The translations under genes and the position numbers were made by a program. A stretch of DNA of 64,000 bases from the NCBI GenBank assembly GCA_021818925.1, contig JAKASU010000001.1:231972-295971 (forward strand). Reading direction: 5' to 3'. Shown piece after piece: positions 24,367 through 54,098 of the stretch. How positions within the stretch are numbered: position 1 is the stretch's first letter; every line of letters begins with the position of its first letter. The stretch comes from Microcaldota archaeon (GTDB lineage Archaea > Micrarchaeota > Micrarchaeia > Micrarchaeales > CABMGC01). The notes under the pieces were generated by a model, which was not told the DNA's origin, made no database searches, and worked only from the letters and a program-made list of their open reading frames with translations.

Positions 24367-27291
24367 TTATGACGAGCCGCTCAGCAGGGCCTGTATGAAC
24401 TGGTTTCCTGCCTGGACTGTCTGGTTCGCGTAGTATCCCGCAACCAGGATCCTGTTGCTGCCGAACGCCTGAAGCACGACTGAGCCTGTGTTGAAGCTCG
24501 AGTCGAGGCTTGGGTTCTGCGAGAAGATCTGCTGCGCTACGCTGTTCACGAACTTGCTCCCGATTACTATCAGGGTCGAGGCAGAGTTCGCGTTGCTGTC
24601 CAGGACTACCAGCGGCGTCTGAGCCGTGTTCAGCGACACAGGTGTCGATGCGCTCGATACGCTAGGCACAGCCGTCAGGTTGCTTATGCCGCTCACAGTG
24701 CATCCCGAGCCGCTTGCTCCAACGCTGCACTTCGCCGTTACGTTGGCGATGGTGACGTTAGGCAGGTTTGTGCTCTGGCCTACGCTGTAAGGCCCAACCA
24801 TCTTCTTTGCGCTAGTTACCGTTGCGTTGACAGGTCCCACGACCAACTGCAGCGAGTCCACGTTCTCCGCGAGGTTGAAAGTCAGCTGCGTTGGTCCTAT
24901 CGCAGTCACTTTGCTGCCACGCTCAGAAACGAAGCCCACCTGCGCGTTTACGTTGTTCCCGGAGCTTGACTGGTACGTGACGTTGTTCTGCGTCCCTGTA
25001 GTCGAGTAGTTCAGGTAGAACATCGGCGTCGCCGATATGCCTGTCGTCGAGTTCAGGATGTTGAACGAGAACGCGTCCTGCGAGTTCGTGTTGCTAGGTA
25101 CGTTGATCTCAGCCACGTTGTACGTGAAGAACCCGAACTGAGGGCCTGTGCCAGCCTTGGCATAAGGCGCCATGTTCGTTATCGTGAACGTAGACGTTGG
25201 CTGTCCGTTCTGCTGGTTGTAGATCACGCTAGCTCCGCTTACAGTGCTGTAGTACGTCTGTCCCGAGAGCGGTCCGTAGATTATCTGCGGTGTCGTGCCC
25301 GAGGTCAGTGTCGCCATCACGTTTGCGGCCGTGTACTGTCCGCCCGTAGCGATCTGCGCGGCACTCACGGTTATTCCAGGCAGAGCCCTGTTCAGCTTAA
25401 TCTGCGTTATGTTGTAGAACGACGAGGATGTCGGCAACATGTTGCCCGAGGTTGCGCTGGTGAATGTCACCGACGTACTCTGAGCCGAGGATGCCGTGTT
25501 GCTCGGGAATCCCGAGATCGTCACTACCAGAGGGTTCGAGGTGCTGATGAAGTTCGCCGTAGGGTAACCGGTTGTAGCAGCCAGAGCCACGTTGACCGGA
25601 TCTCCGGTAACTGCGCCGTTAGCTGTTACCGCGTTGGCGTTCTCCGTAAGCACGTACGGTGTCAGCAGGTATGTTGCCGTGCTGCCCGTGAAGCCTCCGT
25701 CGTTGAACGCGCTAGGTATCTGCGATGTCACGACAAGCTCCTGCGCAGGCTCGGTTATGTTGTTTATGTTACCTAGGCCACTGTCCTTGTTAGTAGGTGT
25801 GTTTGCGTAGTTGACGCTGCTTGCGTACTGCGAGCTTATCGAGAGCGCGTCGAAGTTGTTTCCGAGCGTGTCACCGGTGAAGGTTACCTTGTAGGCCTTC
25901 GGGTTCTGTATGAAGGTGAAGCTCTGACCAGGTGTCAGGGTCACCGGGGTTGTGTTGTACAGGATTATGCCCGCGAGGTCTGTGTAGTGGTTTGCGCCGT
26001 TCGCCGTGGTGTTGACCCAGAGCAGGTTCACGTTCCAGCCAGGATCTCTTGTCTGGTTGAAGACGCCGCCATCGGTGATGTTGTAGAGTCCAGAGTACAT
26101 CTGGATCTTCGCCCACTTCTGGTACGCGTACAATCCCGCGAATGTCTGGTTTACCTTGACCCAAAGCTGTGTGCCCGAGACGTTGTACTTCACTGTGTTG
26201 CCTGGGAAGATTGACGATGAGTTCGTCAGCACTCCGTGGTAGTAGACGTTTATGGCCGCTGTGCTTATGCCTGCGTTGTTCGCCGTGCCCAAGTCCGCCA
26301 GCTGAACCGTGAACGGTCCGCTTGTCAGGTTCTTGCCTACATATACTGTAGATAGGGGAACCAACGAGGACGCAAGTCCGAGCTTGCCGCCGTGGGTTGC
26401 CACTGTAGATGAGGAAGGCGTGCCAGCAGGCAGCGTGTAGCTGACTATGGTCCAGTTTTGGCCAAGCAGTGTGAACGCAGCATTGTTAACCGAGTTGCCC
26501 GTAGTGTAGTAAGGCTCGTGTATCGGGTGGTTGAACAGCACCTCGTATGCGCCTCCCGCGTTCATTATCGCGAAGTTCTTTATTGCAGGGGTTGTCTGCT
26601 GGTTGTATACTGGAAAGCCTGTTAGGAACAGGTACTCGCTCTCGCCTGTGCTTCCGGAGTTGCTCAGAAGAGAAGGAAGCTGCGAGTTTCCAATCACCAT
26701 CAGGTTGTCTATCTTGCCGCTCGTGAACGTGGTGAACGACAATCCACCTCCGTTGCTTGCAGCGCTTACTGATGTTGATGTGGGAACGTAACCTGCTGCG
26801 GTGTACGGCGAGTCAGGAGGGCTGTTTGTCGTTGTGAAGCCCTGCTGGGATCCGTATGTTGATGTGGTGGCTAGATACTTTGTGCTCGATGGTGAGCCGA
26901 GTGTTATTCCTCTGTTGAGTACAGAGCCGATGAGCGCTGTGAAGCCGTAGCTTCCGGTTGGCGCAGCAACTCCAGCCTCACCCAGGTAAACCTGGGCGCC
27001 CGTTACCGAGCACGTGGCCGTTGTCACAACGCAGCTCAATCCGCTTTGTCCGCTGACCGTAGCGGTTATCGGAGTGGATGTGAAGGCAAGGTTGCCTATC
27101 ACCGCAGCGATGTTAGCTGCAACGACTCCGTCGCTAGGTTGCGCCTGGGATCCGACTACTATCTGGACCACAGGCTGTCCGGCGCTGTTTATTATCGGTA
27201 TGTTGCTGAAGGACACAGGTCCTGCAACCGCGAGTCCAAAAAGAAGGCTCGCTGCCAAAACTCCTATTCGCTTTGCGTTTAGTCTATTCAT
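24367..27291 (-). CDS. S-layer protein, methanogen-type family
   Basis: A 974-aa secreted protein that should form the surface lattice. After a signal peptide (RIGVLAASLLFGLAVAGPVSF) comes the S-layer N-terminal signature PVVQIVVGSQAQPSDGVVAA with a following IAAVIGNLAF. The C-terminus has the matching domain (STLIVIGSKFVNSVA, then SNRILVAGYYANQTVQAG). Both ends are those of the Methanococcus-type S-layer family, while the ~750-residue centre is a Ser/Thr/Asn-rich beta region full of Asn sequons. Acidic and basic residues are sparse in the centre. Expression signals are strong: TATA CCTTTAAA at 27330-27338 and a hairpin terminator. Confidence 0.92.
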   Translation of the reverse strand: MNRLNAKRIGVLAASLLFGLAVAGPVSFSNIPIINSAGQPVVQIVVGSQAQPSDGVVAANIAAVIGNLAFTSTPITATVSGQSGLSCVVTTATCSVTGAQVYLGEAGVAAPTGSYGFTALIGSVLNRGITLGSPSSTKYLATTSTYGSQQGFTTTNSPPDSPYTAAGYVPTSTSVSAASNGGGLSFTTFTSGKIDNLMVIGNSQLPSLLSNSGSTGESEYLFLTGFPVYNQQTTPAIKNFAIMNAGGAYEVLFNHPIHEPYYTTGNSVNNAAFTLLGQNWTIVSYTLPAGTPSSSTVATHGGKLGLASSLVPLSTVYVGKNLTSGPFTVQLADLGTANNAGISTAAINVYYHGVLTNSSSIFPGNTVKYNVSGTQLWVKVNQTFAGLYAYQKWAKIQMYSGLYNITDGGVFNQTRDPGWNVNLLWVNTTANGANHYTDLAGIILYNTTPVTLTPGQSFTFIQNPKAYKVTFTGDTLGNNFDALSISSQYASSVNYANTPTNKDSGLGNINNITEPAQELVVTSQIPSAFNDGGFTGSTATYLLTPYVLTENANAVTANGAVTGDPVNVALAATTGYPTANFISTSNPLVVTISGFPSNTASSAQSTSVTFTSATSGNMLPTSSSFYNITQIKLNRALPGITVSAAQIATGGQYTAANVMATLTSGTTPQIIYGPLSGQTYYSTVSGASVIYNQQNGQPTSTFTITNMAPYAKAGTGPQFGFFTYNVAEINVPSNTNSQDAFSFNILNSTTGISATPMFYLNYSTTGTQNNVTYQSSSGNNVNAQVGFVSERGSKVTAIGPTQLTFNLAENVDSLQLVVGPVNATVTSAKKMVGPYSVGQSTNLPNVTIANVTAKCSVGASGSGCTVSGISNLTAVPSVSSASTPVSLNTAQTPLVVLDSNANSASTLIVIGSKFVNSVAQQIFSQNPSLDSSFNTGSVVLQAFGSNRILVAGYYANQTVQAGNQFIQALLSGSS

Positions 27292-37710: not shown

Positions 37711-37808
37711 TTGCGCCTCCTGGCCAGCCCTTCTCCTATGTCTGACTGACTTACTTGAGTTTAGATTGTACAAGTACCGATTTAGATGATTGGTGAGCGA
37801 AACTCTAC

Positions 37809-37818
37809 GCATATAAAC
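37809..37818 (+). promoter_or_regulatory. TATA box of aglB
   Basis: GCATATAAAC lies downstream of the ORF-track start (37786), so that start cannot be used by this promoter. Transcription from here, plus a GAGGG sequence at 37854-37858, points to TTG 37867 eight bases further on. Confidence 0.55.
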
Positions 37819-37866
37819 TTAACATACAAAATCCTTTCTGCTTACACCTTCTTGAGGGTAATTCGT

Positions 37867-40290
37867 TTGGAGGAAGCTGCACACGATACACACGCTACCA
37901 CGAGCGCTGGCGCTTCTCAGCGCAACCTTCTCAAGTTCGTCAGCGACAATTCCCTCTTGGTTTTCCTTCTTGCGGTAGTCATCATAGTGCTCGTCACCGT
38001 ATACTTCAGAATCCCGATGCTGTCCTTCTACGGCTTCTATGAGCCAGACGGCTACTTCCATTATTCCATCATAAGGCTCGCTGTCAACAACGGCTTCTCC
38101 ATACCGCAGATTGACCCGCTTAGCGGCTGGCCCCCGAACTGCAACAGCTTTGCAAGCAACGGCTGCGGGGTTCCGCAGGTTCCGCACCACGAGCCCTTCG
38201 GCCTCTACTGGGTCACGCTCATACCGTACTTCTTCCTACAGTTTGCCGGAGTTGGCTACTATGACATAATGCGCCTCATGCCCGTCCTGTTCGCAGTGCT
38301 GGAGGTCATTGGCGTCTACTTCCTTGCCAGGTACTGGAGCAGGAGCCGCTTCCTAGGGCTGCTCGCCATGCTCCTCGTTGCGCTGAACATGGGCAACGCC
38401 GCGCGCACAAGCGCGCTCATCTACCGCGGCGACAGCTTCGTGACCCTCTTCGCCATTGTAGCAATAATCGCCACGATTGCAGTATTCAGAGCCGAGAGCC
38501 GGAGGCGCAAGGTAGCGTACGCTGTGATTGCCGGGGCGCTGCTGAGCCTCTGCAATCTCGTGTGGAACGGGGGCCCGTTTGTCATAGCCATCTACTTCTT
38601 CGCAATCATGCTCATACTTATCCTGGGCTTCGCCTTCGAGAAGCGTAAGCTGGTCGGAGACACCGGCTACGTGCTGCTCTCGCTCATTGTCTGGTTTCTG
38701 CTAGTATATCTCTACAGGTCGCTGATGTGGATAGTCAGCCTGCAGACTTTCACAGGCTTCAACTTCTTCCTTCTTCTTGTGCCCACGGTCCTAGGCTGGC
38801 TCTTTGCGCTCTATGTGATGGACAAGATGCATGGGAAGCTGCCGCATATTGGTACGCCAGTCAGGAAGATCGCTTTGGGAGTAGGAATAGCGGTGGTGAT
38901 CTTCCTGCTTGTGTATATTCTGATACCAAGCTCCGTTAACGACATCTTTGTCACGTCCGGCTTCGACATAACCAGCGCCTTCGCCTCCACAATACAGGAG
39001 CAGCAGCCGCCCACGTACGCGTTCCTCTTTGCAAGCTTCAACTTCCAGAACTTCACCACGCCGATGAACATAATAATGGTGATAGATACCTTCTTCTCCG
39101 GCCTGCACATTTACTGGTGGATAGTGCTGCTCGCGCTGTTCGCCCCCTACTTCTTCATGCAGATCGATGATCCGGAAAGCGGGCTCCTTGGCGGCACCGC
39201 GAGGTGGCGCTTCGAGTTCAACGAGGCAACGCTCTTCCTTGTCTCCTACTTCGCGCTGACCGCATACCTCCAGATGAACGCGATAAGGTTCAACTCCCTC
39301 ATCTCCATACCCATGTCCATATTCAGCGCCTACACGATCTACTGGCTCATCGTCTTCCTGAAGAGGTACAGGTTTGCCTACTACGCCTCTTTCGTGCTCG
39401 TTGCGTTGCTCATAATCTTCGTGGTGCAGACGGATCTCGGCTATATAACCGGGCTGGCGCCCGCAGATCAGATCAACCCGGCGTTCATCCAGGCGCTCAT
39501 GTGGATGAAGAACAACACGCCGAGCAACAGCGTGGTGCTCACCCTGTGGCCCGACGGTTCTGTGGTTGAGGGCGTGGCGCAGCGGATCAGCGTCACCGAC
39601 AGCGTGGGCTCGCAGTACGCGTTCAAGGCTGATCCATTCGCGGCATGGCTCTACAACTCCAGCCCCGATCCCGGATTCCTGCTAGCCAACATAACGGGCA
39701 AGCCTGATTACTTGCTCGTTAGGCAGGCGTGGATGGTCGAGACCGGAGGCATATTCACCGAATCTGGCATAAACGTCAGTGCAGGAAATTACGGCTACAA
39801 CCCGTTCACAAGCCTGAACGAGCGCGTCAACAAGACTTCGCAACTGTACCAGTTCTTCGGCAGCGGGCTGGAGGAAGACACGGTGCTCACGAACACTTCG
39901 ACAGGACAGACAGTAGCCAGCTACCTGAAGTTCAGCCAGGGCATACAGCCTTTCGAGTACGTTGACTTCTACAACATTCTTACCGGAAACTGGTCCATAG
40001 TGAAGCAGACCGCGTTCAACGTGACCAACAACCAGACCTTCCTCATAAGCTACTCTCCGATACCCGCGCCCAACCTCTACGTCAACATCACCTCGGCGTA
40101 CATGCTCGGCCCTGCGCTCGCGGACAGCAACATGGTCAAGTTCCTCTTCCACTGCAACGCGCAGGCGTGCCTGTGGAACAACAACGTCGCCGGCCTCAGG
40201 CTGGTCTACATCAACCAGGACACCAAGATCTTCCAGATACTCTACAACGAGAGCAACGCTACCGTTGCTGCTGCAAACTTCCCGCGATAA
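37867..40290 (+). CDS. aglB: Oligosaccharyltransferase AglB/STT3
   Basis: An 807-aa polytopic STT3-family enzyme that transfers a lipid-linked glycan to Asn in N-x-S/T. The first luminal loop has FYEPDGYFHY with the catalytic Asp61, and LIYRGDSFV around residue 180 is the second acidic motif. About 12 membrane helices precede a ~300-residue outside domain. The usual WWDYG acceptor-binding signature is replaced by LWPDGS near 559. Start is TTG 37867, supported by the TATA box and SD-like GAGGG. It is the central enzyme of the glycan island. Confidence 0.9.
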   Translation: MEEAAHDTHATTSAGASQRNLLKFVSDNSLLVFLLAVVIIVLVTVYFRIPMLSFYGFYEPDGYFHYSIIRLAVNNGFSIPQIDPLSGWPPNCNSFASNGCGVPQVPHHEPFGLYWVTLIPYFFLQFAGVGYYDIMRLMPVLFAVLEVIGVYFLARYWSRSRFLGLLAMLLVALNMGNAARTSALIYRGDSFVTLFAIVAIIATIAVFRAESRRRKVAYAVIAGALLSLCNLVWNGGPFVIAIYFFAIMLILILGFAFEKRKLVGDTGYVLLSLIVWFLLVYLYRSLMWIVSLQTFTGFNFFLLLVPTVLGWLFALYVMDKMHGKLPHIGTPVRKIALGVGIAVVIFLLVYILIPSSVNDIFVTSGFDITSAFASTIQEQQPPTYAFLFASFNFQNFTTPMNIIMVIDTFFSGLHIYWWIVLLALFAPYFFMQIDDPESGLLGGTARWRFEFNEATLFLVSYFALTAYLQMNAIRFNSLISIPMSIFSAYTIYWLIVFLKRYRFAYYASFVLVALLIIFVVQTDLGYITGLAPADQINPAFIQALMWMKNNTPSNSVVLTLWPDGSVVEGVAQRISVTDSVGSQYAFKADPFAAWLYNSSPDPGFLLANITGKPDYLLVRQAWMVETGGIFTESGINVSAGNYGYNPFTSLNERVNKTSQLYQFFGSGLEEDTVLTNTSTGQTVASYLKFSQGIQPFEYVDFYNILTGNWSIVKQTAFNVTNNQTFLISYSPIPAPNLYVNITSAYMLGPALADSNMVKFLFHCNAQACLWNNNVAGLRLVYINQDTKIFQILYNESNATVAAANFPR

Positions 40291-41293: not shown

Positions 41294-41968
41294 ATGGAGT
41301 TTAAGAACGCGCAGCAGCTGGAAAAGGCGAAGCTTGAAGACGCACTCATCAGCCTGCTGTACGGCAGGTACAACGGGCTCGTCTTCCACGGGGGCACAGC
41401 GATATGGCGATGCTACTCGGGGAACAGGTTCTCCCACGACATAGATTTCTACCTGCATGTGCCAGACAAGGACAGGGAGAGACTTTACAGGGAAATATCC
41501 GAGTTCCTAAGGGAATGCGGGTTTGCACTGAAGGAGAAAGGATACAGCAGGGATACAAACACAATGCACTTCCTTGTGGAATCGAACACGAAAATGAAGG
41601 TCGACATCAATCTTGGTCACAAGAAAGGCGTACCTGTCGAGTACGCGCGGGTGGACGGCAGCAAGATGCTGGTGCTGTCGCTGACCCCCGAGGAGCTGCT
41701 GAAGGAGAAGATCGGAGCCTATGAAAGCAAGATGCGCAACGAGGAGGGTTTCAGGCAGGCAGAGGTGCAGGACCTTTATGACATCTACCACCTGATAGCG
41801 CTGGCAAGCAAGAAGGATCCGGCTACCGTCCGAGCGCTTGGCGCGCTGGTCGAGAGCGTGGAGAAGAGCCCTCCGCCGAACGTGCGCAGTCTGGACCACC
41901 TGATACTAAGCGGAGTGACGCCCTCTTTGGAAGTGATGGTAAAGCGGATAAAGGAATGGATTGCATGA
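41294..41968 (+). CDS. AbiEii-type nucleotidyltransferase toxin (second pair)
   Basis: A 224-aa nucleotidyltransferase toxin. FHGGTAIWRCYSGNRFSHDIDFYL holds the G-G-T and D-x-D active site near residues 34-56; KMKVDIN supplies a further Asp and EVQDLYDIYHLI is the conserved C-terminal segment. It is shorter and clearly different from the toxin at 4362. Here the toxin gene comes first and overlaps the antitoxin gene, the reverse order of pair 1. The pair lies between two 97-bp direct repeats. Confidence 0.87.
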   Translation: MEFKNAQQLEKAKLEDALISLLYGRYNGLVFHGGTAIWRCYSGNRFSHDIDFYLHVPDKDRERLYREISEFLRECGFALKEKGYSRDTNTMHFLVESNTKMKVDINLGHKKGVPVEYARVDGSKMLVLSLTPEELLKEKIGAYESKMRNEEGFRQAEVQDLYDIYHLIALASKKDPATVRALGALVESVEKSPPPNVRSLDHLILSGVTPSLEVMVKRIKEWIA

Positions 41969-42588
41969 ACGCCGGTAGGAAGATAATAGGAAAGTTTTCG
42001 CAGTACCCCGCCTTCACCTACAAGGAAGTAGAATTTTATACGGGAAGGAGCGTGCCGGACCTCGCTCGCGTTCTCTCTTACATGAAGAAGACTGGCAGGA
42101 TATACACGATCAGAAAAGGCGTTTACACCACAACAAAAGACAGTATGCTCTCCGGGTTTGCCTACACCCCATTTTACTACGGCATGCTCTCGGCGATGAC
42201 CATAAGGGGCCTGTGGACCCAGGAATCCAGGCCGGACATAATCACGATCAGGAAGGTAAGGAACTCCAGGAAGGCGGTGTTTGGGGACAGGACAGATGTT
42301 GTGTTCGTGCACCACATACCTGCAAGATATTTTTTCGGGTACGACATTGTGAAATACGGCAGGTTCATGCTTCCTGTTTCGGATGCGGAGAAGACGCTCA
42401 TCGACCTGTTCTACTACAGGGTTAGGCTGGCGGTGCAGAACTACGGAAACCTGCTTGCCGCGGTGCGCCAGAGAAAGCTGAAGGAATATTTGATGACGTA
42501 CGATGCCCACACGGTCTCTTCTGTAACAAATTTCGTTAAGAGATACAAGCGAGCCGCAGATTCTGGCAGGCTTACAAGCGAATACTGA
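41965..42588 (+). CDS. AbiEi-type antitoxin (second pair)
   Basis: A 207-aa AbiEi-family protein. The N-terminal winged-helix part reads YPAFTYKEVEFYTGRSVPDLARVLSYMKKTGRIYTIRKGVYTT, followed by PFYYGMLSAMTIRGLW and VSDAEKTLIDLFYY, the antitoxin core. The ATG at 41965 overlaps the toxin stop by four bases (ATGA); the track uses ATG 41956, which is also possible. Expected to repress its own promoter and block the AbiEii enzyme. Confidence 0.85.
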   Translation: MNAGRKIIGKFSQYPAFTYKEVEFYTGRSVPDLARVLSYMKKTGRIYTIRKGVYTTTKDSMLSGFAYTPFYYGMLSAMTIRGLWTQESRPDIITIRKVRNSRKAVFGDRTDVVFVHHIPARYFFGYDIVKYGRFMLPVSDAEKTLIDLFYYRVRLAVQNYGNLLAAVRQRKLKEYLMTYDAHTVSSVTNFVKRYKRAADSGRLTSEY

Positions 42589-43930: not shown

Positions 43931-44002
43931 TATGCACGGGATTAGACACGCGTTGTAGTGATTGCTTTTTAATTTTGTATGCGTGATGCTTACACTGGTC
44001 CT

Positions 44003-45127
44003 ATGCGCATCGCCTTCGCCTCTGACAGCGCCTACCCGTGGTTCAAGGGCGGGATAGAGAAGAGGAGGTACATAATAATGCGCAGGCTCGCGGAGGAGGG
44101 CCACCAGGTGCACTGCTTCACCATGCACAGGAAGGGCATGCCAGGCCACGCGTTCACCTACAGGGGCATAAGGTACCACTGCGTGGGCGAGGCGCTGGAC
44201 TGGAAGGGCATGTACAGGGGAGGCAGCAGGCGCAGGAGCATACGCATGCCGCTTATCTTCAGCATCAAGCTCTTCTTCAAGATACTGCCGTACAGGTTCG
44301 ACGTGCTAGACGCCGACTCCTTCCCGTTCCTGCACCTCATACCGCTCTTCCTGTACTCGAGGATACGCAACGTGAAGTTCGCTGTTACGTGGCACGAGGT
44401 CTGGGGCGCGGACTTCTGGAAGAGGTACCTGAGGGGCTTCGGCTTAATCGGCTACACAGTGGAGTGGCTCTGCTCAAGGATGGCTGACGTGCACATCGCA
44501 AACTCGAGCACGACAAAGCGGCTGCTCGAGAGCGTGCTCGGGGTCCGGCCCAGCAGGATACTCACCTTTCCGGTGGCGATAGACAGCGATGAGATCAGGA
44601 GGTTTGGCTCAGAGAAGAGGAGGAAGAAGGACCAGTTCATAGTGGTCAGCAGGCTTGTTGGCCACAAGCGCGTATGGCTCGCCATAGACGCGGTGGCGAA
44701 GACGAAGGCGAGGCTGCTGATAGTGGGCAACGGCCCTGACCTTGAGAAGCTTACGGAGCTGGCGGAAAAGAAGGCGCCAGGAAGGGTGGTGTTCAGGCAC
44801 GACCTTACCGACGCTCAGCTCTTTGCGTGCATAATGGAGTCGAGGGCTATGATCATGCCCTCCGAGCGGGAGGGGCTCTCGCTGGCAACCATAGAGGCGC
44901 TTGCGGTCGGGGTGCCGGTGGTTGTTGCCGATACCAGCTCGCTGCCTGTGGAGGTGAAGAGCATGTGCGTTGAGGCGAAGGAGAAGAGGCTGGGAGCGCT
45001 TCTCAACAAGATCCTCTTGGAAAGCGGGTCTTACACGGGCAGAGCCATGGCGCTGCGTTCCGAGGTGCTACGCGAGTTCTCCGGTGACAGCGCGGGAAAG
45101 GTGTACGCCAGGGTCGAGAAGGCATAG
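44003..45127 (+). CDS. Glycosyltransferase family 4 (GT-B)
   Basis: A 374-aa GT-B glycosyltransferase. MRIAFASDSAYPWFKGGIEKRRY is the N-terminal acceptor-side loop; FIVVSRLVGHKRVWLAIDAV begins the donor domain and MIMPSEREGLSLATIEALAVG is the E-x7-E nucleotide-sugar site. The ATG at 44003 is ~30 bases after an AT-rich TATA element (gctttttaatttt); the track start at 43979 is too close to it. Probably part of the same surface-glycan pathway as the island to its left. Confidence 0.9.
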   Translation: MRIAFASDSAYPWFKGGIEKRRYIIMRRLAEEGHQVHCFTMHRKGMPGHAFTYRGIRYHCVGEALDWKGMYRGGSRRRSIRMPLIFSIKLFFKILPYRFDVLDADSFPFLHLIPLFLYSRIRNVKFAVTWHEVWGADFWKRYLRGFGLIGYTVEWLCSRMADVHIANSSTTKRLLESVLGVRPSRILTFPVAIDSDEIRRFGSEKRRKKDQFIVVSRLVGHKRVWLAIDAVAKTKARLLIVGNGPDLEKLTELAEKKAPGRVVFRHDLTDAQLFACIMESRAMIMPSEREGLSLATIEALAVGVPVVVADTSSLPVEVKSMCVEAKEKRLGALLNKILLESGSYTGRAMALRSEVLREFSGDSAGKVYARVEKA

Positions 45128-45176: not shown

Positions 45177-48100
45177 ATGCGCACCGCTTCTGGTTCCATC
45201 CTGCTCCTCTTTGCGCTTGCGGCCGCGATCCTCATTGTGCCAGCAAACGCAGCCACTTACGTGCGCATCGGAACCAGTTCAACGACCACGACCACCACCA
45301 CAACGTCCAGCACAACCACCACTATCGCACTTTCGTGCAGCAACTACTGCAACACCGGGGGGCCATACGGCGGCAGCGCGTGCAGCAGCACGGCCGAAGC
45401 GCCCTATCCTACCACGTGCTACGTTGCACAGAAGTTCAACACCGCATACCAGCAGTCGAGCAACCCGCTATTCAACAACCCCTCGACCATAAGTCCCTAC
45501 TACCAGTCTCCAGCCAACAGCGTGAGCTCCTACAACGTGTACAACGCGCCCTGGTTTCTCACCTGCCCCGTGAATCCGTACAGCTCGCCCAACCCGACAG
45601 ACTCACGGCTCTTCTACACCTCGCCGTACAACAACAACCAGTTCCCTTTCGTCGCTGGCGACGTCTGCCTGGCGAACACGCAGGACCTCACGACGCAGCT
45701 CAGACTGCCGGTCACAATAACCTGGACCAGCAGCACGCCGGCGAAGGCGACGGTCAGGGCGCTGGAGACAACGGGCGCGGCCGACCTGCAGATAAGCGCG
45801 CTGGCCTATTCGCCTATGTACCAGGCAGGGCTGCAGAACGTAATATCGTCCACGTACTACAACAGCTCCTACATCTTCCAGAAGGTCCCGGCAGCTGCGC
45901 AGAACGCGATTTGGACGTGGAGCGCCACATACGCCAACTTCAGCGGGGCGGTGCAGGACACGCAGACCGTCAACGCGAACCCGATAATAGACAAGGCATG
46001 GCCGATATCTTCCAGCGCTGACGACGACTCAAATGGCGCTCTGGCGGGAAGCACGGCACATTCGGCGGAGAACGGAACGTTGGCGCTGACGCAGAGCGGC
46101 GGCGCTGCGGCGGAGAATTCAAGCGGCGGTCCTCAGTTCAGGCAGATAGGAGGGGAATGCTCGTGCAACAGCTGCGATGGGAGCGGTAGCTGCGATTACT
46201 GCCCTGCCTCCTGTCCCGCAGTCAGCGTCTCGACAAACATCTGCTCATCGGGCTACTTCTGCTCTTCGCCAGGCACGAGCTCGACTTCGACCTCGACCTC
46301 CACCACAACCACGAGCCCGACGACAACGATAGAGAGCTATACCTGCCAGTACAGCTACAAGTACAGCGAGACGACTTCGCTGCAGAGCGTGAACAACCAG
46401 CAGGTTCCGTTCACCGAGGTGGAGCTCAGAGGCTCCGGAAGCAGCCAGCAGGAGGCCCTGAACAGCTTCAGCACCAGCATACTCCCATACTTCACCTACA
46501 ACTTCTCTGCGCCAAGCCCCGATAGCCAGGCTCTTAGCCTCTCGTACGACATCTTCGGCCCCTGGAACTACTACACGCCTGCGAACAGCATAGACCTCTT
46601 CCCGATAGACACGCCAGATTCCTTCTACATAAACTACAACGGCCTGCTAATATCAGGACCCGTATCCAGCCTGCTCAACGGCAACGCGCTGCAGAGCCTG
46701 CTGAGCAACATAGAGAAGGTGCTGCAGAACGCGGGAAACATAGGCGGACTGCTCAATGCGCTTAGCCACCGCAAGCTCTCAAGCCCAGCGATATCGGCGC
46801 CGATTGCGATAGCGGCGATGCCGAACGACTACATCTTCGTGCTCAACCAGAGCAGCAGCAACAGCAACTACTACATAAGCGTGCTAAGGCTCATCCCGCA
46901 CGGCTACTACAACAGCTCATCCGACCAGCCGAGCGGCGTGCAAAACGTGAGCGTGGACTCGAGCCAGCAGGCGCAGGGCGCGCAGCAGTACGCAAACGCG
47001 TGGAGCTCGTACTGGAACAACGTGACCGCTCTCCAGAACCAGACAACGTACGTGGTGGACAGCGTCGACATAACGACGCTGCTGCAAGGCTACACGTACT
47101 GCACTCAGGGCAGCGGAAGGGCGAGGGGCTTCTGCTATCCGTTCACGCCTCTGAACATAAGCGTTGACGACCGCGGTGACATATACATGTCTGGATACTT
47201 CGCCAGCGTGAACAAGCCAGGGCTGGTAAAGATAACTGGCATACTGAACAACAGCCTCAGCATGACCCACGCATCATCGGGCTGGACCGCAAACGAGACG
47301 CAGATACTTCCGCTCGTCGCCGCGACGCCCACCAGCGGGCTGGTCTTCATGGGCGGTCCGAACAGCGGCTACCTTTACGAGTTCAGCGGCAACGACCTCT
47401 CCAGCCTCGGCAGCCTTAGCCTATCGTTCAACGCGACAAATAACACAGTGCCTGGCGAGAACATAGCGCTCAACATACCCGCTTACCTGCAGGACGGCGG
47501 GCTCTACAATCTCTCTATACCGGGCCTGTACAGCTACGGCACGAAATTCAACCCCGGAACAGACTTCGACAAGGCGAGCTACCACCACGTGCTTGGCCTG
47601 CAGGAGGTCAACGGCTACCTCTACGTGCTCGACGACTGGGCCGCGGGGCTCAACAGTCAGAGCTGCTACACCTTCTTCACGTGCCCAAACGCTAACATGA
47701 ACATACTGATGGTGCGCGTGCTCAACAGCACAGGCTTCAACGTACCGCTCAGCCCCACGCTCACCAACGACCTGTACCAGCAGCAGAAGTGCACAGCCAC
47801 GGGCAGCACCAACCTCCTCAACACATGCACGAACAAGCCGCCAAGCTCCTCGCAGGTGCAGTGCCTGCCGAGCAGCTACTGCTCGATACAGGAGACCGGC
47901 ATATGCGGGGGCAGGGGAAGTATAGAGGCGCAGTACGACTGCGTGGCCAGCGGGACCAAGACCAGCACATACTACGCTACGGCCACAGGACTGTTCGGCA
48001 ACACAAGCACGTATCCGCCGTACGGCTGGGTGCTGTCAGCGAACATAACCGTAAGCGGCTGGGCAACGATAAACTTCTGCTCATCTTCGAACAACGCCGG

Positions 48101-50948
48101 CTCCAATCCGGCGTGCGGCTGGAATCCTGGGCATCTGCCGCAAAGCTACAAGGGCAACTTCAAGCCCATAGGGCCTGCTCTGGGTGACGTGTATGTCACG
48201 CCGACAGATGTGGGCTTCAGCGTGAACTACAACAACACGGTAAACCTGATAATAAAGCCAGGCAGCTCTGGTTCGTGGCACCTCTGCACCGCCTTCGGTG
48301 TCCTGCCTCTTCCTTGTTACACGACAGTGACCAGCCCGCACTACAGCGAACTGATAGTGGGCACGACGCTGAATGTTGAGAACTACACCAAGCTCTTCGA
48401 CGGCATCAGCACTGGTCCCGTTTACTGCTATACCGACTCGTCCGCGGACGCGGCGCCTCAGGGCTCTTCGAACGGATGCCAGCTGCTCAGCGGCGTCAGC
48501 GAGATGAACGCGCCCGTCTACACGGTAGCCAACCCGTTCAGATACTTAGAGAGCCTTGGCGCGGCGCAGCAACTCACGTTCGCAGGCGCCGTATCCTCGG
48601 GGCTCCCGCCAGGCATCGCGAACAGCAGCTGCGCGAGCCAGCTGATAAACGGGCAGCCATGCAGCGGCACGCCGTACAAGACGAACGGTCCGCCGTCGAT
48701 GCAGATACAGCAGGCTCCCGTGGGCTGGGGCCTCGCCGACCAGATAACGGTGCAGTCGCCAAGCAGCTCCAACACCGTGGAGATACTCATAAACGGAACC
48801 GAGGTGGCGTCGGCGCAGGGAACCGCGACCTACGTCATATGCTCCACACCGGCGTTCTGCCTGCAACCGGGTAACTACCAGATACAGGGCAGGGACGCAA
48901 CCTCTGGCAAGAGCGTGAGCTACACGCTCCAGGTAAACGCAACGCCGTTGCTCACGCTTACGCCGGGGGTGCAGGTCGAGGGCAACACAGAATACATGAC
49001 GGTCAACACGTTCAACAACCAGGACAAGGTTGAGCTGCTGAAGAACGGAGTCGTAGTGGTGCCTCCCAGAACAGGCAGCATAAGCTACAACGAGAGCAAC
49101 TACAGCTCTGCTCCTGGCTATTACGTGATGGACGCGATGGACATCACGAACGGAAAGCAGAGCGCCGTGGTGCTCTACGTGGTGTCGAACGCGACCTCCT
49201 CGGCATCGGGTCAGCCCAGCGCGGCAACGGAGAGCCTGACGAGCCAGATAGGCGGCTATGTGCTCGTGCCATACGAGTACACGTACAGGTTGCAGCAGAG
49301 CTGGAGCAATCCTTCGCCCACGACCAACGGCACGACGCACGATGGGGTTATACAGGTGTATGACAGCGACGACTACGGCAACGGATGCTCGACCAGCGGC
49401 GTCTTCGCGCAGCAGGGGACGAGCAGCACCAGCACGATAAGCGTCTTCTCCACGGCGCTGACCGGGGCGACGAGCAACAAGCTCTCGGCAACGATAGAGG
49501 GCGGCTACACCTACCTGCACGACCTCTTCAACAACGACTACTTCATACCCAACCTCACAGACACGGGGCTCATACTGCCGCCGCAGATACAGTACGAGAT
49601 ACAGAACGACAGGCTCTTCGCGACAGTCTACGCAAACTCAACGCTCTGCCCGATGAGCGGCGGCGTCGTTGACTGCTCGAAGAACACGCAACTCGTTCTC
49701 AACGCGAGCAACCAGAGCTACTACCAGGTGCTGTACCACATACAGAGCGGGCCGAACACCCCCAGCCAGATAGACGGCGGCTACAAGGTGTTCAGCACCT
49801 ACCCGACGTTCGACCAGAACTCCGCTTCTCTGGTGCACGGCACGCCGGCGGCGTTCACGTCAAACGGCGCGGTCTTCAACTACAGCAGCCTCTTCATACC
49901 TACGAGCGTTCCGCTCTTCTCGCTCTACAAGCAGGTAGTCTATGACAGCACCCTCAACCTGTACCTCAACGGAACAAGCTACGCTGGAAGCGGACTGTCG
50001 CTTCTAGGATACCAGCGCCTAACATACGTCTTCGTCGACAGGTTCGGCAACAGGATATACGCGCCCATAGACGCAGACATAGCCTATCCTGTCACCGTAA
50101 CGCTCAAAGTCAACTCGCACGTCTCGCTAAACAACTCCAACCTGACCACGGTCAACATAACTGGCCAGGCGGGCGTCTTCTCCAATCTCAACTCCGCGTT
50201 CACGCCGCTGGGGGCAGGAAACAGCATCTACCTCTACTACAACAAGGACCTCAACTTCGTGAACTACAACCCGCGCACAGACCCGGTCAACGCGATCTAC
50301 TGCGCCTACAGCTTAAACTCGACGTTGCACCTCAACTGCACGCAGTCCAACCCGGTGCTCGTAGGCGACGGAGCCAACGACAACATAAGCACGTATGCGC
50401 CCATGTACAACGCGTCGGGGACGTGCGGCCCTCCGCCGAACGGGCTGCTGGAGAGGAACGTGAGGGCGTGCAACATCTACAACTCGCTGGGACTCTCTGC
50501 CAGATGCCCCAGCACCGCATCGAGCGCGGGCTCGGAGGAGTTCTGCTCTCCAATATACCTCAACGGCACAGGCTTCTGCACCTCGCAGCTCGGCCTCATC
50601 ACCATAGCGAAGACCGGCGTCAACGGCACCTTCAACTACACAACTACCGCGTGCGGCAACAGCCAGGACCAGATACTGGGCAGGTTCTACGGCTATCCCG
50701 GCCCGGAGCCGGTGCCCGTGAAGCAGGCGCCGCTCGGCCTCTCGCAGAACTCGATAGGCTCGTACTCGGGCCAGCTGACGCAGACGAACAACCTCAACTA
50801 CCAGTACGCGCCCTCGAAGGAGGCAGCGGCAGTGTTCCAGGTAGGGCTCTTCCTGCTCAGCTACAATAACATAGGAATAGTCGCGCTTCTCGCCAGCGCG
50901 GCCACCGCTTTGGCGCTGCTCTTCATGAAGAGGCGGGGGCGCGGATAG
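45177..50948 (+). CDS. Giant surface protein with signal peptide and C-terminal anchor
   Basis: A 1923-aa secreted protein. The signal peptide (ILLLFALAAAILIVPANA) is followed by a Thr/Ser run near residues 35-50. A Cys-rich knot (CSCNSCDGSGSCDYCPASC) near 327-345 precedes a second Thr/Ser linker near 368-384. The bulk is Asn/Ser/Tyr-rich beta structure with many N-glycosylation sequons; two tandem Ig-like repeats of ~70 residues lie at ~1190-1340 (each ends in a GxY..xxxD/A.xxT.GK pattern). A last membrane helix (GIVALLASAATALALLFM) and RRGRG tail anchor it. No enzyme motif was found; adhesion or cell-contact is plausible. Own TATA box (tatttataacttatatatg) upstream. Confidence 0.85.
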   Translation: MRTASGSILLLFALAAAILIVPANAATYVRIGTSSTTTTTTTTSSTTTTIALSCSNYCNTGGPYGGSACSSTAEAPYPTTCYVAQKFNTAYQQSSNPLFNNPSTISPYYQSPANSVSSYNVYNAPWFLTCPVNPYSSPNPTDSRLFYTSPYNNNQFPFVAGDVCLANTQDLTTQLRLPVTITWTSSTPAKATVRALETTGAADLQISALAYSPMYQAGLQNVISSTYYNSSYIFQKVPAAAQNAIWTWSATYANFSGAVQDTQTVNANPIIDKAWPISSSADDDSNGALAGSTAHSAENGTLALTQSGGAAAENSSGGPQFRQIGGECSCNSCDGSGSCDYCPASCPAVSVSTNICSSGYFCSSPGTSSTSTSTSTTTTSPTTTIESYTCQYSYKYSETTSLQSVNNQQVPFTEVELRGSGSSQQEALNSFSTSILPYFTYNFSAPSPDSQALSLSYDIFGPWNYYTPANSIDLFPIDTPDSFYINYNGLLISGPVSSLLNGNALQSLLSNIEKVLQNAGNIGGLLNALSHRKLSSPAISAPIAIAAMPNDYIFVLNQSSSNSNYYISVLRLIPHGYYNSSSDQPSGVQNVSVDSSQQAQGAQQYANAWSSYWNNVTALQNQTTYVVDSVDITTLLQGYTYCTQGSGRARGFCYPFTPLNISVDDRGDIYMSGYFASVNKPGLVKITGILNNSLSMTHASSGWTANETQILPLVAATPTSGLVFMGGPNSGYLYEFSGNDLSSLGSLSLSFNATNNTVPGENIALNIPAYLQDGGLYNLSIPGLYSYGTKFNPGTDFDKASYHHVLGLQEVNGYLYVLDDWAAGLNSQSCYTFFTCPNANMNILMVRVLNSTGFNVPLSPTLTNDLYQQQKCTATGSTNLLNTCTNKPPSSSQVQCLPSSYCSIQETGICGGRGSIEAQYDCVASGTKTSTYYATATGLFGNTSTYPPYGWVLSANITVSGWATINFCSSSNNAGSNPACGWNPGHLPQSYKGNFKPIGPALGDVYVTPTDVGFSVNYNNTVNLIIKPGSSGSWHLCTAFGVLPLPCYTTVTSPHYSELIVGTTLNVENYTKLFDGISTGPVYCYTDSSADAAPQGSSNGCQLLSGVSEMNAPVYTVANPFRYLESLGAAQQLTFAGAVSSGLPPGIANSSCASQLINGQPCSGTPYKTNGPPSMQIQQAPVGWGLADQITVQSPSSSNTVEILINGTEVASAQGTATYVICSTPAFCLQPGNYQIQGRDATSGKSVSYTLQVNATPLLTLTPGVQVEGNTEYMTVNTFNNQDKVELLKNGVVVVPPRTGSISYNESNYSSAPGYYVMDAMDITNGKQSAVVLYVVSNATSSASGQPSAATESLTSQIGGYVLVPYEYTYRLQQSWSNPSPTTNGTTHDGVIQVYDSDDYGNGCSTSGVFAQQGTSSTSTISVFSTALTGATSNKLSATIEGGYTYLHDLFNNDYFIPNLTDTGLILPPQIQYEIQNDRLFATVYANSTLCPMSGGVVDCSKNTQLVLNASNQSYYQVLYHIQSGPNTPSQIDGGYKVFSTYPTFDQNSASLVHGTPAAFTSNGAVFNYSSLFIPTSVPLFSLYKQVVYDSTLNLYLNGTSYAGSGLSLLGYQRLTYVFVDRFGNRIYAPIDADIAYPVTVTLKVNSHVSLNNSNLTTVNITGQAGVFSNLNSAFTPLGAGNSIYLYYNKDLNFVNYNPRTDPVNAIYCAYSLNSTLHLNCTQSNPVLVGDGANDNISTYAPMYNASGTCGPPPNGLLERNVRACNIYNSLGLSARCPSTASSAGSEEFCSPIYLNGTGFCTSQLGLITIAKTGVNGTFNYTTTACGNSQDQILGRFYGYPGPEPVPVKQAPLGLSQNSIGSYSGQLTQTNNLNYQYAPSKEAAAVFQVGLFLLSYNNIGIVALLASAATALALLFMKRRGRG

Positions 50949-51018
50949 GCCGATTGTCTCTTTATAAGGATATGTATTTATAGCAAGAAATGCATATTTT
51001 ATATCGAGGAGGAGTGGA

Positions 51019-52299
51019 ATGCTGCCTATAATTCTGAGCTTCGGTTCGATAGACGCGCTCATCCCGCTTATCATAATAGTTGTGCTCATAGCAGCGGCCG
51101 CGGGCCTCACAAGGGGCTTCGACATGCTCAAGTTCTTCGGCATAGAGACGATGGCGGGCATAGGCGCCGGAGCGGCGGCAAAGGGCTCGCTGCTCAAGAA
51201 GACGGCGTTCACAAAGACGGCAGGACAGGCCCTCGTGGGCAAGGGAGGCAGTATAACCAGCAAGGTGTTCTCGCCTTCGAAGATGGCCGCTAACAGCATG
51301 GCCAAAAGAACGGCCAGGAACGCTGCCTTCCAGAATGAGCTTAAGAACCTGGGCGTGAAGACGACCGCCAAAACAGCCTCGGCAGGCACGCTAAGGGGCT
51401 TTGCTGTACGAGCAGGCGGAACGGCTGTTAGGTTGGGACACACTATAGCGCCGGTTACTACGGTGGGGGCCGTGGCGGGAGTTGCAGGCGGAAAGGCAGT
51501 CATAAGGGAAGTGAAAGGCAGGTTCTCGAACACCAAGATAGACACCAGCGGCCTGAACAAGGACATCGCCAATATAGAGACGCCATTCAAGAATGAACTT
51601 GGGGGCCTGAAAGGCAAGACAAGCGTCGATACCAGTGAACTCCAGCTCAAGCTCGACAACAGCAAGAGAGCGTTTTCAAGGTCGGCCATAAAGTCGGATA
51701 GGCTCAGACTAAGGAAGGAGATCGCGGATCTGAGCAAGCAGATAGAAAATCGCGGTACCTTGGAGAGGAGGATGGCATTCCTGCAGTCAAAGGAGAAGGC
51801 GTTGCAGGAGGCGCGCGCCGACTTCTTGAAGGATGGAGACGTTGCGAAATTCAGGCAGCAGTTCAACAAGGTATGGAACTCTGCTTACAATACGCGATCC
51901 TCAAATGCCTATGCCGCGTACGCGATTGCGACGGCGGCGCCGGGGATAGCCCTTAACCTGTTTAATGAAGGAAAGAGGAGTGCTAATCTGAACAGGCTTG
52001 AGAGAAAGCTGAGAAACGATAACGCCACAAGAGGGCAATTCGAAATGCCGAAGGAAGAGAAGATAACACAGCTCGAGAGCCAGAACAGGCTCAGCGCTGC
52101 TATTGAAAGGATGAAAGAGAGGCGTAAAACTGAAGCGGCGGAGAAGAAGGAGAAGAATCAGGAGCTCCTGCGCAGCAGGATAGAGGACAGCCGCCTTGTA
52201 GTAGCGAACAAGAAAGTCGAGGCCAAGATAAGGGACGCGCGAGACAGCCTGCGCTCAAGGCTCAAGAAAAAGAATGAGAATGAGGAAGAAAGCAGCTAG
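51019..52299 (+). CDS. Membrane-anchored coiled-coil protein
   Basis: A 426-aa protein. One N-terminal helix (LIPLIIIVVLIAAAAGLTRGFD) is followed by a Gly/Ala/Lys-rich segment with another weakly hydrophobic stretch (VTTVGAVAGVAGGKAV, ~145-165) and then a long Lys/Glu/Arg-rich coiled coil (from ~225 to the end). A strong ribosome-binding sequence (GAGGAGGAG) sits just before ATG 51019. It begins 70 bases after the giant surface protein and is probably expressed with it. Function unknown; a cytoplasmic linker for the surface protein is a guess. Confidence 0.75.
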   Translation: MLPIILSFGSIDALIPLIIIVVLIAAAAGLTRGFDMLKFFGIETMAGIGAGAAAKGSLLKKTAFTKTAGQALVGKGGSITSKVFSPSKMAANSMAKRTARNAAFQNELKNLGVKTTAKTASAGTLRGFAVRAGGTAVRLGHTIAPVTTVGAVAGVAGGKAVIREVKGRFSNTKIDTSGLNKDIANIETPFKNELGGLKGKTSVDTSELQLKLDNSKRAFSRSAIKSDRLRLRKEIADLSKQIENRGTLERRMAFLQSKEKALQEARADFLKDGDVAKFRQQFNKVWNSAYNTRSSNAYAAYAIATAAPGIALNLFNEGKRSANLNRLERKLRNDNATRGQFEMPKEEKITQLESQNRLSAAIERMKERRKTEAAEKKEKNQELLRSRIEDSRLVVANKKVEAKIRDARDSLRSRLKKKNENEEESS

Positions 52300-52424
52300 A
52301 ACTCTTCCGATTCCTCGCTGTCGAAGTCGTCGTCGCCCTCATCGCTGTCGTCATCCATGTCCTCGTCAGTGTCATCGTCGTCGTTCTCGTCGTTCGTATC
52401 CTCGTCGTCTTCTTTCTTCGCCAT
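52296..52424 (-). CDS. 42-residue highly acidic protein
   Basis: Too short for the ORF track. ATG 52424 opens MAKKEDDEDTNDENDDDDTDE and ends FDSEESEEF before a TAG, so about two thirds of the residues are Asp or Glu. The TATA box TCCATATAAT (52461-52470, minus strand) lies about 40 bases upstream, with GGGGTGCC between. Its stop overlaps the stop of the coiled-coil gene by 3 bases. The strong acidic bias and clear promoter support a real protein; it may bind the very basic coiled-coil neighbours or cations. The 66-aa ORF listed here is a different frame. Confidence 0.6.
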   Translation of the reverse strand: MAKKEDDEDTNDENDDDDTDEDMDDDSDEGDDDFDSEESEEF

Positions 52425-52460
52425 ATTAAGGCACCCCTTCGGTTTCCCGAAGTCAATTCC

Positions 52461-52470
52461 ATTATATGGA
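52461..52470 (-). promoter_or_regulatory. TATA box of the acidic small protein
   Basis: TCCATATAAT on the minus strand, with the expected start near 52440, giving a ~15-base leader before ATG 52424. Confidence 0.5.
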
Positions 52471-52541
52471 AAAGTTATTTAAAGCTATGTTAACCGGCCG
52501 GGATATCCGAACCTACGGCGATAGAGTTACGTCTCTGCTCG

Positions 52542-54098
52542 TTAATCGAGAGAAAGCAGCTCCACCCTTGCGGCTTCGCTGGCCTGCTGCGCAGGCTTGT
52601 ACTTTCTCAGGAGTATGCTAAGCTCGAGCTGCCTCTTCACGAAGTCGTCGAGCGATTCCTGTACGTCTTTGACCTTTATGTTGTAGGTGCTGGAGAAGAG
52701 CTTGATCAGGTCCCAGTAGGTCCTCCTGCTCAGGTCCATGATCTCTTCTTCGTCCCAGTTAGCCGAATCGGTGAAGTGCTCTATCATGCGGTTTATGTGC
52801 TCGCTCGTTATCACTTTGGTGGAGAGCTTAAGGTCAAGCTGCTTCGCCTTCTTGTCCATTGCCGCCTCCAGCTCGTGTCTCATTTCGGTGAGCTTCTTGG
52901 ACTCCTCTTCAGGTATGCTTTTCTGGAACGTGGACGGTATCGCGTAGCCCAGCTCGACGATGGTCTGCAGGTACAGGCTGTTCAGCCTCTTCATGCGCTT
53001 CTTATCCGACTTGTCTTTGAGAGCATTGAACTCCTCAAGCAGCTCCTTTACCTTGTTCTCCTCGTACTCAACAAAATTAGTGCCGGCCACCTGCCTGGCC
53101 TCTCCCAAGAGCACTTCCGGGGTCCTGATCAGCACCGAGTTTGAAATGCCAAGGTCCTTGAGGTCCTCCGTGCTTAGGCTGTTGAGGAAGTCTGAAGATG
53201 CGTGCACCGCCTTCCTCCTCTTCACCTCGGCCTGAGCTTCGTCGATCGCGTTGATCATTATCACGTTCTCTTCGAATTTTGCAACCTCGGCGCGAGCCCC
53301 TGCAAGGTTGATCTCAGCGAGCGAATCGAGCACGGTCTCTGTCTGTCCGGTTTTGCTCTTGAACAGGGTGAGCGCCTGGCCTATCGCATAGAGCTTCTTG
53401 CCCCTCCCGCTTTTGCCCCTGTACTGCTCTATCTCGTGGAAAAGTTTGTTGAGCTTGCCGATCTCAGAATCCTTGTCATTGAATGATTTAAGCTCATTTT
53501 CGCACCTCTTCTTCTCTTCCTCGAGCATCTTCTCGAATTCGTCAGGATTGGATAGCGTTGCCTTGCTTGCGAGGGCCTTGATCCTTTCGTGCGCCCTCAG
53601 CGGTGCGTCCTCAAGTGCCACCTCAAACGAATTCCTTTCGTACTCGCTGCAGTTCTTGTTTGCAACTCTAAGCTTTTCCAGCCTTTCTTGCTCAGTTTCA
53701 TATTTTGTTGTTGCTTCGTTGAACTTCTTGTCCACACGAAGCAGCTTCGGAGGCATGCGCTTCTTGAGCGCTTCCAGTTCCTCGCCGGTCTCATGAAGCT
53801 CCAGGGAGCTTTCGCTTTTGGCGGCTTTCGAAGCGAGCTGCTTGTAACGGTCATAGTCGTTGAGTTCGTCGTGGCTGAGAAGGCTTACGACCTTATTAAG
53901 ATTCGATGCCTGCAGGTCCTTTTCGCTCTGCGCGGCCGCGACCCTTGACTTCTGGGCCTCTATCTCCTTAGGGACAAATTTAGCAACGAGCGGCAGTATC
54001 TCGTTGGCCGTGCCGATCCTTGGGGCCATCTCGACTATGGCCTTCTCGCTCTCGCGAACCTCGTTGCTTTTATTGAAAGACTTGACGTTCAGCACCAT
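52542..54098 (-). CDS. Long soluble coiled-coil protein
   Basis: A 518-aa Lys/Glu-rich protein with several coiled-coil stretches (EALKKRMPPKLLRVDKKF, EKMLEEEKKRCENELKSF, KVKELLEEFNALKDK). No membrane segment or signal peptide. The C-terminus (NIKVKDVQESLDDFVKRQLELSILLRKY) is also helical. ATG 54098 follows an AGGGGAG ribosome-binding sequence; the track's extra ten residues lack this. Not recognised as any known family. It faces the coiled-coil gene at 51019 across the acidic gene, so the group may act together with the giant surface protein. Confidence 0.75.
   Translation of the reverse strand: MVLNVKSFNKSNEVRESEKAIVEMAPRIGTANEILPLVAKFVPKEIEAQKSRVAAAQSEKDLQASNLNKVVSLLSHDELNDYDRYKQLASKAAKSESSLELHETGEELEALKKRMPPKLLRVDKKFNEATTKYETEQERLEKLRVANKNCSEYERNSFEVALEDAPLRAHERIKALASKATLSNPDEFEKMLEEEKKRCENELKSFNDKDSEIGKLNKLFHEIEQYRGKSGRGKKLYAIGQALTLFKSKTGQTETVLDSLAEINLAGARAEVAKFEENVIMINAIDEAQAEVKRRKAVHASSDFLNSLSTEDLKDLGISNSVLIRTPEVLLGEARQVAGTNFVEYEENKVKELLEEFNALKDKSDKKRMKRLNSLYLQTIVELGYAIPSTFQKSIPEEESKKLTEMRHELEAAMDKKAKQLDLKLSTKVITSEHINRMIEHFTDSANWDEEEIMDLSRRTYWDLIKLFSSTYNIKVKDVQESLDDFVKRQLELSILLRKYKPAQQASEAARVELLSLD

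Follow-up and report, generated by a model that had tools for sequence, protein, structure and literature searches.

The locus described here, part of a 64,000-nucleotide stretch of DNA from a Micrarchaeota archaeon (the window), encodes a giant surface protein together with a membrane partner, and with moderate confidence we interpret it as an envelope-spanning cell-contact apparatus of Micrarchaeota, the outer part of which is re-tooled from lineage to lineage. This giant–partner surface unit is previously undescribed. It is widespread in the order of the window's genome, occurs in single copy, is predicted to face outwards and has defined companion genes; probably, it serves to touch or attack cells nearby. 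It is an open question by what means DPANN archaea recognise their hosts and hold on to them, and for Micrarchaeota few candidate molecules have been named.

Gene content and conservation of the locus

The initial annotation had proposed a giant anchored surface protein followed by a membrane-anchored coiled-coil protein, a small acidic protein and a second coiled-coil protein, none of them recognised. All four open reading frames are present, next to a glycosyltransferase gene:

43979..45127, plus strand: GT4-family glycosyltransferase upstream of the giant (Pfam; neighbour comparison)
45177..50948, plus strand: giant surface protein, 1923 aa (open reading frame and orthologs)
51019..52299, plus strand: partner, single-pass membrane protein, 426 aa (open reading frame, orthologs, fusions)
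52296..52424, minus strand: acidic protein, 42 aa (MAKKEDDEDTNDEN...; conserved neighbour in the window's clade)
52542..54098, minus strand: soluble, mostly helical protein, 518 aa (divergent homologs beside giant or partner in other genera)

The giant begins with a signal peptide (MRTASGSILLLFALAAAILIVPANA) and ends with a helix followed by KRRGRG, in agreement with the proposed export and C-terminal anchoring. The partner gene follows after 70 bp on the same strand; its product has one N-terminal hydrophobic segment, and the rest is helical and rich in K/R/E. The 42-aa and 518-aa genes lie on the opposite strand, convergent with this pair, and therefore the four genes form a linked cluster, which is a real unit but not a single operon; in this point the initial description is corrected. 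A Pfam scan of all four proteins gave nothing above family cut-off and an NCBIfam scan of the giant, the 426-aa and the 518-aa proteins nothing acceptable, so that the description as unrecognised is borne out and neither coiled-coil protein matched an unrelated known function in these databases. The GT4 glycosyltransferase gene is also directly upstream of the giant in two congeners (L015, L016) and several genes upstream in a third (L013), and its membership in the unit is uncertain. Further upstream, an AbiEii-like nucleotidyltransferase toxin gene and a weakly AbiEi-like gene (41294-42588, plus strand) are a candidate type IV toxin–antitoxin pair.

Orthologs of the giant were found in 44 of 59 relatives, one per genome, and those of the partner in 43/59, with conservation of the latter confined to the first ~70 aa. 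Among 68 fetched loci, the partner is the next gene after the giant in 33, lies within 3 kb in 6 more and is fused to it in 2; none was detected in 23 loci, for each of which 3 kb or more had been fetched downstream, and the remaining 4 are cut by contig ends. The adjacency recurs in independent genera, which marks the pair as a conserved gene unit, and in many relatives the genes are not scattered, as the initial annotation had considered possible. A profile of the giant's C-domain matched 80 of the 196 genomes sampled across the phylum; 77 of these belong to the window's order, and the other 3, which are remote, to another family within the same class. With the same profile the giant was undetected in at least 20 genomes of the order, some of them >90% complete. 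When each prokaryote species was represented by one genome, a scan recovered 67 loci, almost all of them on contigs titled Micrarchaeota; the few that bear the titles Marsarchaeota, 'bacterium' or uncultured archaeon probably come from bins with a wrong label or no name.

The two genes on the minus strand are also conserved in relatives. The 42-aa protein consists of 64% Asp/Glu, and an acidic open reading frame occurs at the same position and strand in 30/68 fetched loci, opposite in strand and after giant or partner, all in the window's half of the tree. These frames encode 28-52 aa (with a 73-aa reading in L050), mostly start with MAKK and contain 40-76% Asp/Glu. The 518-aa frame starts at ATG (528 aa from an upstream GTG) and seemed genus-specific in a single-sequence search (5/59 relatives). 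Profiles recovered diverged homologs in L052, L053, L069, L072, L075, L107 and L044, all beside giant or partner, and placed the family in 15/59 whole genomes, all within the window's family; several strong matches adjoin giant or partner where positions are comparable (G012, G022, G023, G030).

Architecture of the giant and predicted topology of the pair

By comparison of orthologs and by modelling, the giant divides into the following parts, all on the plus strand:

45354..45968: N-domain, aa 60-264 (alignment and segment profiles)
46329..46676: B-domain, aa 385-500 (alignment and segment profiles)
46674..46799: insertion site, aa 500-541 (alignment, segment profiles)
46797..47816: beta-propeller, aa 541-880 (AlphaFold, Foldseek, profile match)
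47979..48686: M-region, conserved and Cys-containing, aa 935-1170 (alignment, segment profiles)
48741..49181: extra region, modelled as Ig-like sandwiches, aa about 1189-1335 (segment lengths, model, Foldseek)
49203..50816: Cys-rich C-domain, aa 1343-1880 (profiles, model, Foldseek)
50874..50939: C-terminal transmembrane helix, aa 1900-1921 (model helix and sequence)

These parts are joined by long Ser/Thr-rich linkers, and the protein contains 46 Cys. The order N–B–propeller–M–C–membrane helix is the constant core of the orthologs, which when complete span about 1,559-4,050 aa; the C-domain is the best conserved part, and the N-domain has a near-constant length (about 160-240 aa) in most of them. 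Extra length is located N-terminally, between B and propeller, and inside the propeller. For example, the giants of L057 and L023 carry N-terminal extensions of several hundred aa, with Ser/Gln-rich and PKD-like repeats, respectively, and therefore the outer end of the giant is also exchanged. The insertion site is a short linker in the window's giant and holds SLT/lysozyme modules at the equivalent place in relatives. The segment of the extra region is about 165-225 aa long within the window's genus but does not exceed 70 aa in any other genus of the alignment.

Structure prediction, which the initial annotation had suggested, places a propeller in aa 380-1175 and describes the remainder as all-beta with a terminal helix. 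For aa 380-1175, AlphaFold with 42 orthologs gave a moderate model (pLDDT 70.5), the best Foldseek match of which is the YncE propeller (E=8e-6, prob 1.0), and the profile of the giant matches the YVTN surface-layer propeller 1l0q (2.5e-7). We therefore assign an extracellular beta-propeller to the giant, as one domain only and at moderate pLDDT. The part from aa 1175 was modelled with a pLDDT of 74; its better-supported Foldseek matches are short Ig-like ones, which would belong to its first ~160 residues. The C-domain fold had no convincing match among PDB and viral structures, the matches being generic Ig-type. Like YVTN/NHL-type surface proteins, the giant thus possesses an extracellular archaeal propeller; unlike them, it is a much larger anchored protein in which a single propeller is embedded beside N-, B-, M- and C-regions that belong to no known family.

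The window also encodes components of the cell coat:

24367-27291, minus strand: S-layer protein, 974 aa (PF05124 and TIGR01564)
37786-40290: STT3 oligosaccharyltransferase

Glycosyltransferases are also encoded in the window, and together these genes fit an N-glycosylated coat. The giant and the archaeal S-layer proteins are surface proteins of the same cells, but the giant matches neither PF05124 nor TIGR01564, and the separate S-layer gene rules it out as the S-layer protein. The true S-layer protein shows no obvious C-terminal membrane helix or anchor. Glycosylation of the giant was also considered from its sequon count, an argument that we dropped, as the 44 sequons observed are not exceptional against 34 expected from shuffles.

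Fusions between the two proteins suggest how the pair is arranged. In L102 (3,361 aa) and L078, sister lineages with 99% support in the C-domain tree, the two proteins form one open reading frame, in which a single membrane segment connects the C-domain of the giant to the cytoplasmic part of the partner. The same layout recurs in another family of the class: L111-L113 encode a 2,707-3,218-aa giant and, after it, a protein of 1,828-2,813 aa that has a membrane segment near its N-terminus; the two genes are 21 bp apart in L111 and only 2 bp apart in L112. Partner tails bear DnaJ domains in L107 (8e-12) and L085 (7e-10), and the partner part of the fused L078 protein contains pentapeptide repeats; because of these domains and repeats, the partner tail is likely cytoplasmic. 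The fusions and DnaJ domains thus support the initial view, in which a long protein outside the cell has a partner on the inside. HPD is present in both the L107 and L085 domains, and the DnaJ domain on the L102 partner tail is degenerate. The membrane segments of giant and partner have a common LSxGxI motif; this motif and the fusion junction are suggestive of a common origin, which we did not retain, as profile scores were no better than a hydrophobic control. In L124 (10419-13373), where no giant was detected, two partner genes in tandem precede a type IV secretion (T4SS)-like cluster.

Peptidoglycan-hydrolase modules in orthologs of the giant

Pfam found no hydrolase module in the window's giant but NlpC/P60, SLT and M23 domains in its orthologs. 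At the insertion sites, SLT/lysozyme-like modules occur in L018, L019, L022, L024, L025 and L028 (some below family cut-off), NlpC/P60 in L019 and L028, and M23-like modules, below cut-off, in L022 and L024; with custom profiles, such modules were found around the propeller of at least 14 fetched orthologs. For the NlpC insert of L060, the closest matches are mycobacterial RipA/RipB-type endopeptidases (5e-11), and its catalytic Cys and His are kept. By inspection, the hydrolase inserts retain catalytic Glu and Cys, and the M23-like modules are without the usual metal-ligand His. In the 59 whole genomes, above-cut-off NlpC/P60 domains are found only inside the giant. SLT lies inside the giant in G028, G023 and, weakly, G035, and is free-standing in G038 (twice) and G043. 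On the C-domain tree the hydrolase label requires 6 changes, at least 3 of them forced by well-supported branches; 44 of the 57 orthologs scored there, the window's included, have no hydrolase, and the window's genus falls in a hydrolase-free group. Hydrolase-bearing orthologs are probably no chimeras, because L061 and L103 have near-identical copies from separate assemblies. The giant of L069 contains, next to an intact NlpC/P60 domain, a second copy (aa 271-412) in which the catalytic Cys is replaced by Pro (FDPSG). A phage origin of the lysozyme-like insert was considered and rejected, as it matched none of 50,697 phage records; one sequence search of the PDB returned chance matches only.

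Several known proteins resemble the hydrolase-bearing orthologs. Castelle et al. (2021, PMC8204110) described fam00969, a family of large surface proteins with a murein transglycosylase from Pacearchaeota and Woesearchaeota; for large transglycosylase proteins of DPANN archaea, binding or degradation of bacterial walls has been proposed (PMC8204110, PMC9723730). Like fam00969, with proteins of up to 3,000 aa, the family described here is extracellular, from DPANN archaea and, in orthologs of the window's giant, equipped with a murein transglycosylase domain. Compared by description, however, the transglycosylase defines fam00969, whereas here the hydrolases are optional inserts of several types and the conserved part is a propeller scaffold without transglycosylase, as in the window. 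Another resemblance is to VirB1/PrgK/TraG of monoderm T4SS, in which lysozyme/SLT and NlpC/P60 or M23 are combined in one membrane-tied protein. Transglycosylase and peptidase likewise occur in one protein in L049, L060 and, with a degenerate M23, L052, but not in the window. The giant differs from VirB1/PrgK/TraG in being far larger, archaeal, optionally equipped with hydrolases and generally unlinked to virB4.

Function of the unit and alternative explanations

The sequences themselves show the signals for export and anchoring, the constant order of domains, the linkage and fusion of the genes, the propeller, the J-domains and the hydrolase modules of relatives; complex formation, topology, glycosylation, the contact function and the target cell are inferred. 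In the proposed mechanism, the giant would be exported, N-glycosylated and held by its C-terminal helix, so that a rod of beta-propeller, Cys-rich and Ig-like domains projects through the separate S-layer or above it. The partner would cross the membrane beside it, or as the same chain in the fused forms, and put a helical or J-domain tail into the cytoplasm, thereby linking the giant to the cytoplasm; there, the tail and the soluble 518-aa protein may organise or signal. The outer modules of the giant would determine what is touched, and in several relatives the peptidoglycan-cutting modules around the propeller could act on bacterial walls. As these hydrolases belong to an archaeon without peptidoglycan, they are therefore presumably pointed outwards, to bacteria. 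However, wall cutting cannot be the general function, because the window's giant has no enzyme and the host of the cultured micrarchaeon Ca. M. harzensis is a Thermoplasmatales archaeon bounded by a single membrane (PMC8975820). In the window's genus, Ig-like domains between propeller and membrane and no hydrolase suggest binding rather than cutting. Contact is thus best read as the general role of the scaffold, to which particular lineages have added wall cutting. In favour of contact, each genome has a single ortholog throughout most of the order, and cultured Micrarchaeum attaches to its host by filaments at contact sites (PMC8975820). For the contact or attachment apparatus initially suggested, the hydrolase modules of orthologs provide indirect support, but the window's giant has no such module and no partner was detected nearby in 23 loci. 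The presence or absence of hydrolases in the orthologs would predict whether a given micrarchaeon encounters bacteria or archaea that have no peptidoglycan. It is also possible, if tentative, that the contact apparatus is general to Micrarchaeota, being conserved across the order and probably the class, armed in several lineages with bacterial-type wall hydrolases and coupled by J-domain tails to cytoplasmic chaperone action; if true, bacteria and not archaea are what the hydrolase-armed lineages attach to, feed on or enter.

The single copy and near-universality of the giant are also compatible with a structural envelope protein. One such explanation, which we consider rather unlikely, could be that the giant is a SlaB-like membrane anchor or stalk of the S-layer, with the partner tying it to the cytoplasm and the hydrolase modules as lineage-specific extras, e.g. 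for defence against bacteria. S-layer anchoring in Micrarchaeum was described as unknown (PMC8975820), and a widespread, single-copy giant beside an S-layer protein without C-terminal membrane helix agrees with such a role, but very variable length and inserts are unusual for a lattice part, and both the enzyme modules at the propeller and the failure to detect the giant in some nearly complete genomes argue against it. The enzyme modules could instead point to an anti-bacterial weapon, a tethered wall-hydrolase carrier protecting the archaeon or its host from bacteria. Archaeal peptidoglycan hydrolases have indeed been shown to kill bacteria (PMC12352652), the inserts keep their catalytic Glu and Cys, and one free-standing SLT protein of G038 lies 0.7 kb beyond the giant–partner pair. 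Yet hydrolases are missing from those 44 of 57 orthologs, and a weapon role is therefore derived at most; together with the M23-like modules devoid of metal-ligand His, this makes the explanation improbable.

We likewise give little credence to the giant forming the surface component of an exchange machine that resembles type IV secretion (VirB4/VirB6, Ced/Ted-like), in which the SLT, NlpC and M23 modules would take the VirB1/PrgK role of monoderm conjugation systems. Monoderm VirB1 combines a transglycosylase with a peptidase domain, to which CPR homologs add M23 (PMC12102498), and a VirB4/HerA-type ATPase match is present in all 59 relatives, the window's genome included, accompanied by a VirB6-like multi-TM protein in the clusters examined. 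The distance between such a cluster and the partner is about 0.5-4.2 kb in L124 and L065, and the partner abuts VirB6-like genes in L125. Against this, about 36 kb separate the cluster from the giant in the genome of the window, in most relatives the cluster is unlinked, no homology between giant and VirB proteins was found, and a handful of adjacencies in about 45 genomes is near chance; adjacencies in three genomes are too rare to claim an association of the partner with T4SS. In L125 (489-5899, minus strand), four VirB6-like multi-membrane proteins without Pfam match are encoded right after the partner gene. The Ced/T4SS-like cluster of the window's own genome, outside the window (L126 8690-12981; contig C3, about 316.7-321.0 kb), comprises a VirB2-like small protein, a VirB6-like 6-TM protein, the VirB4/HerA-type ATPase and further proteins.
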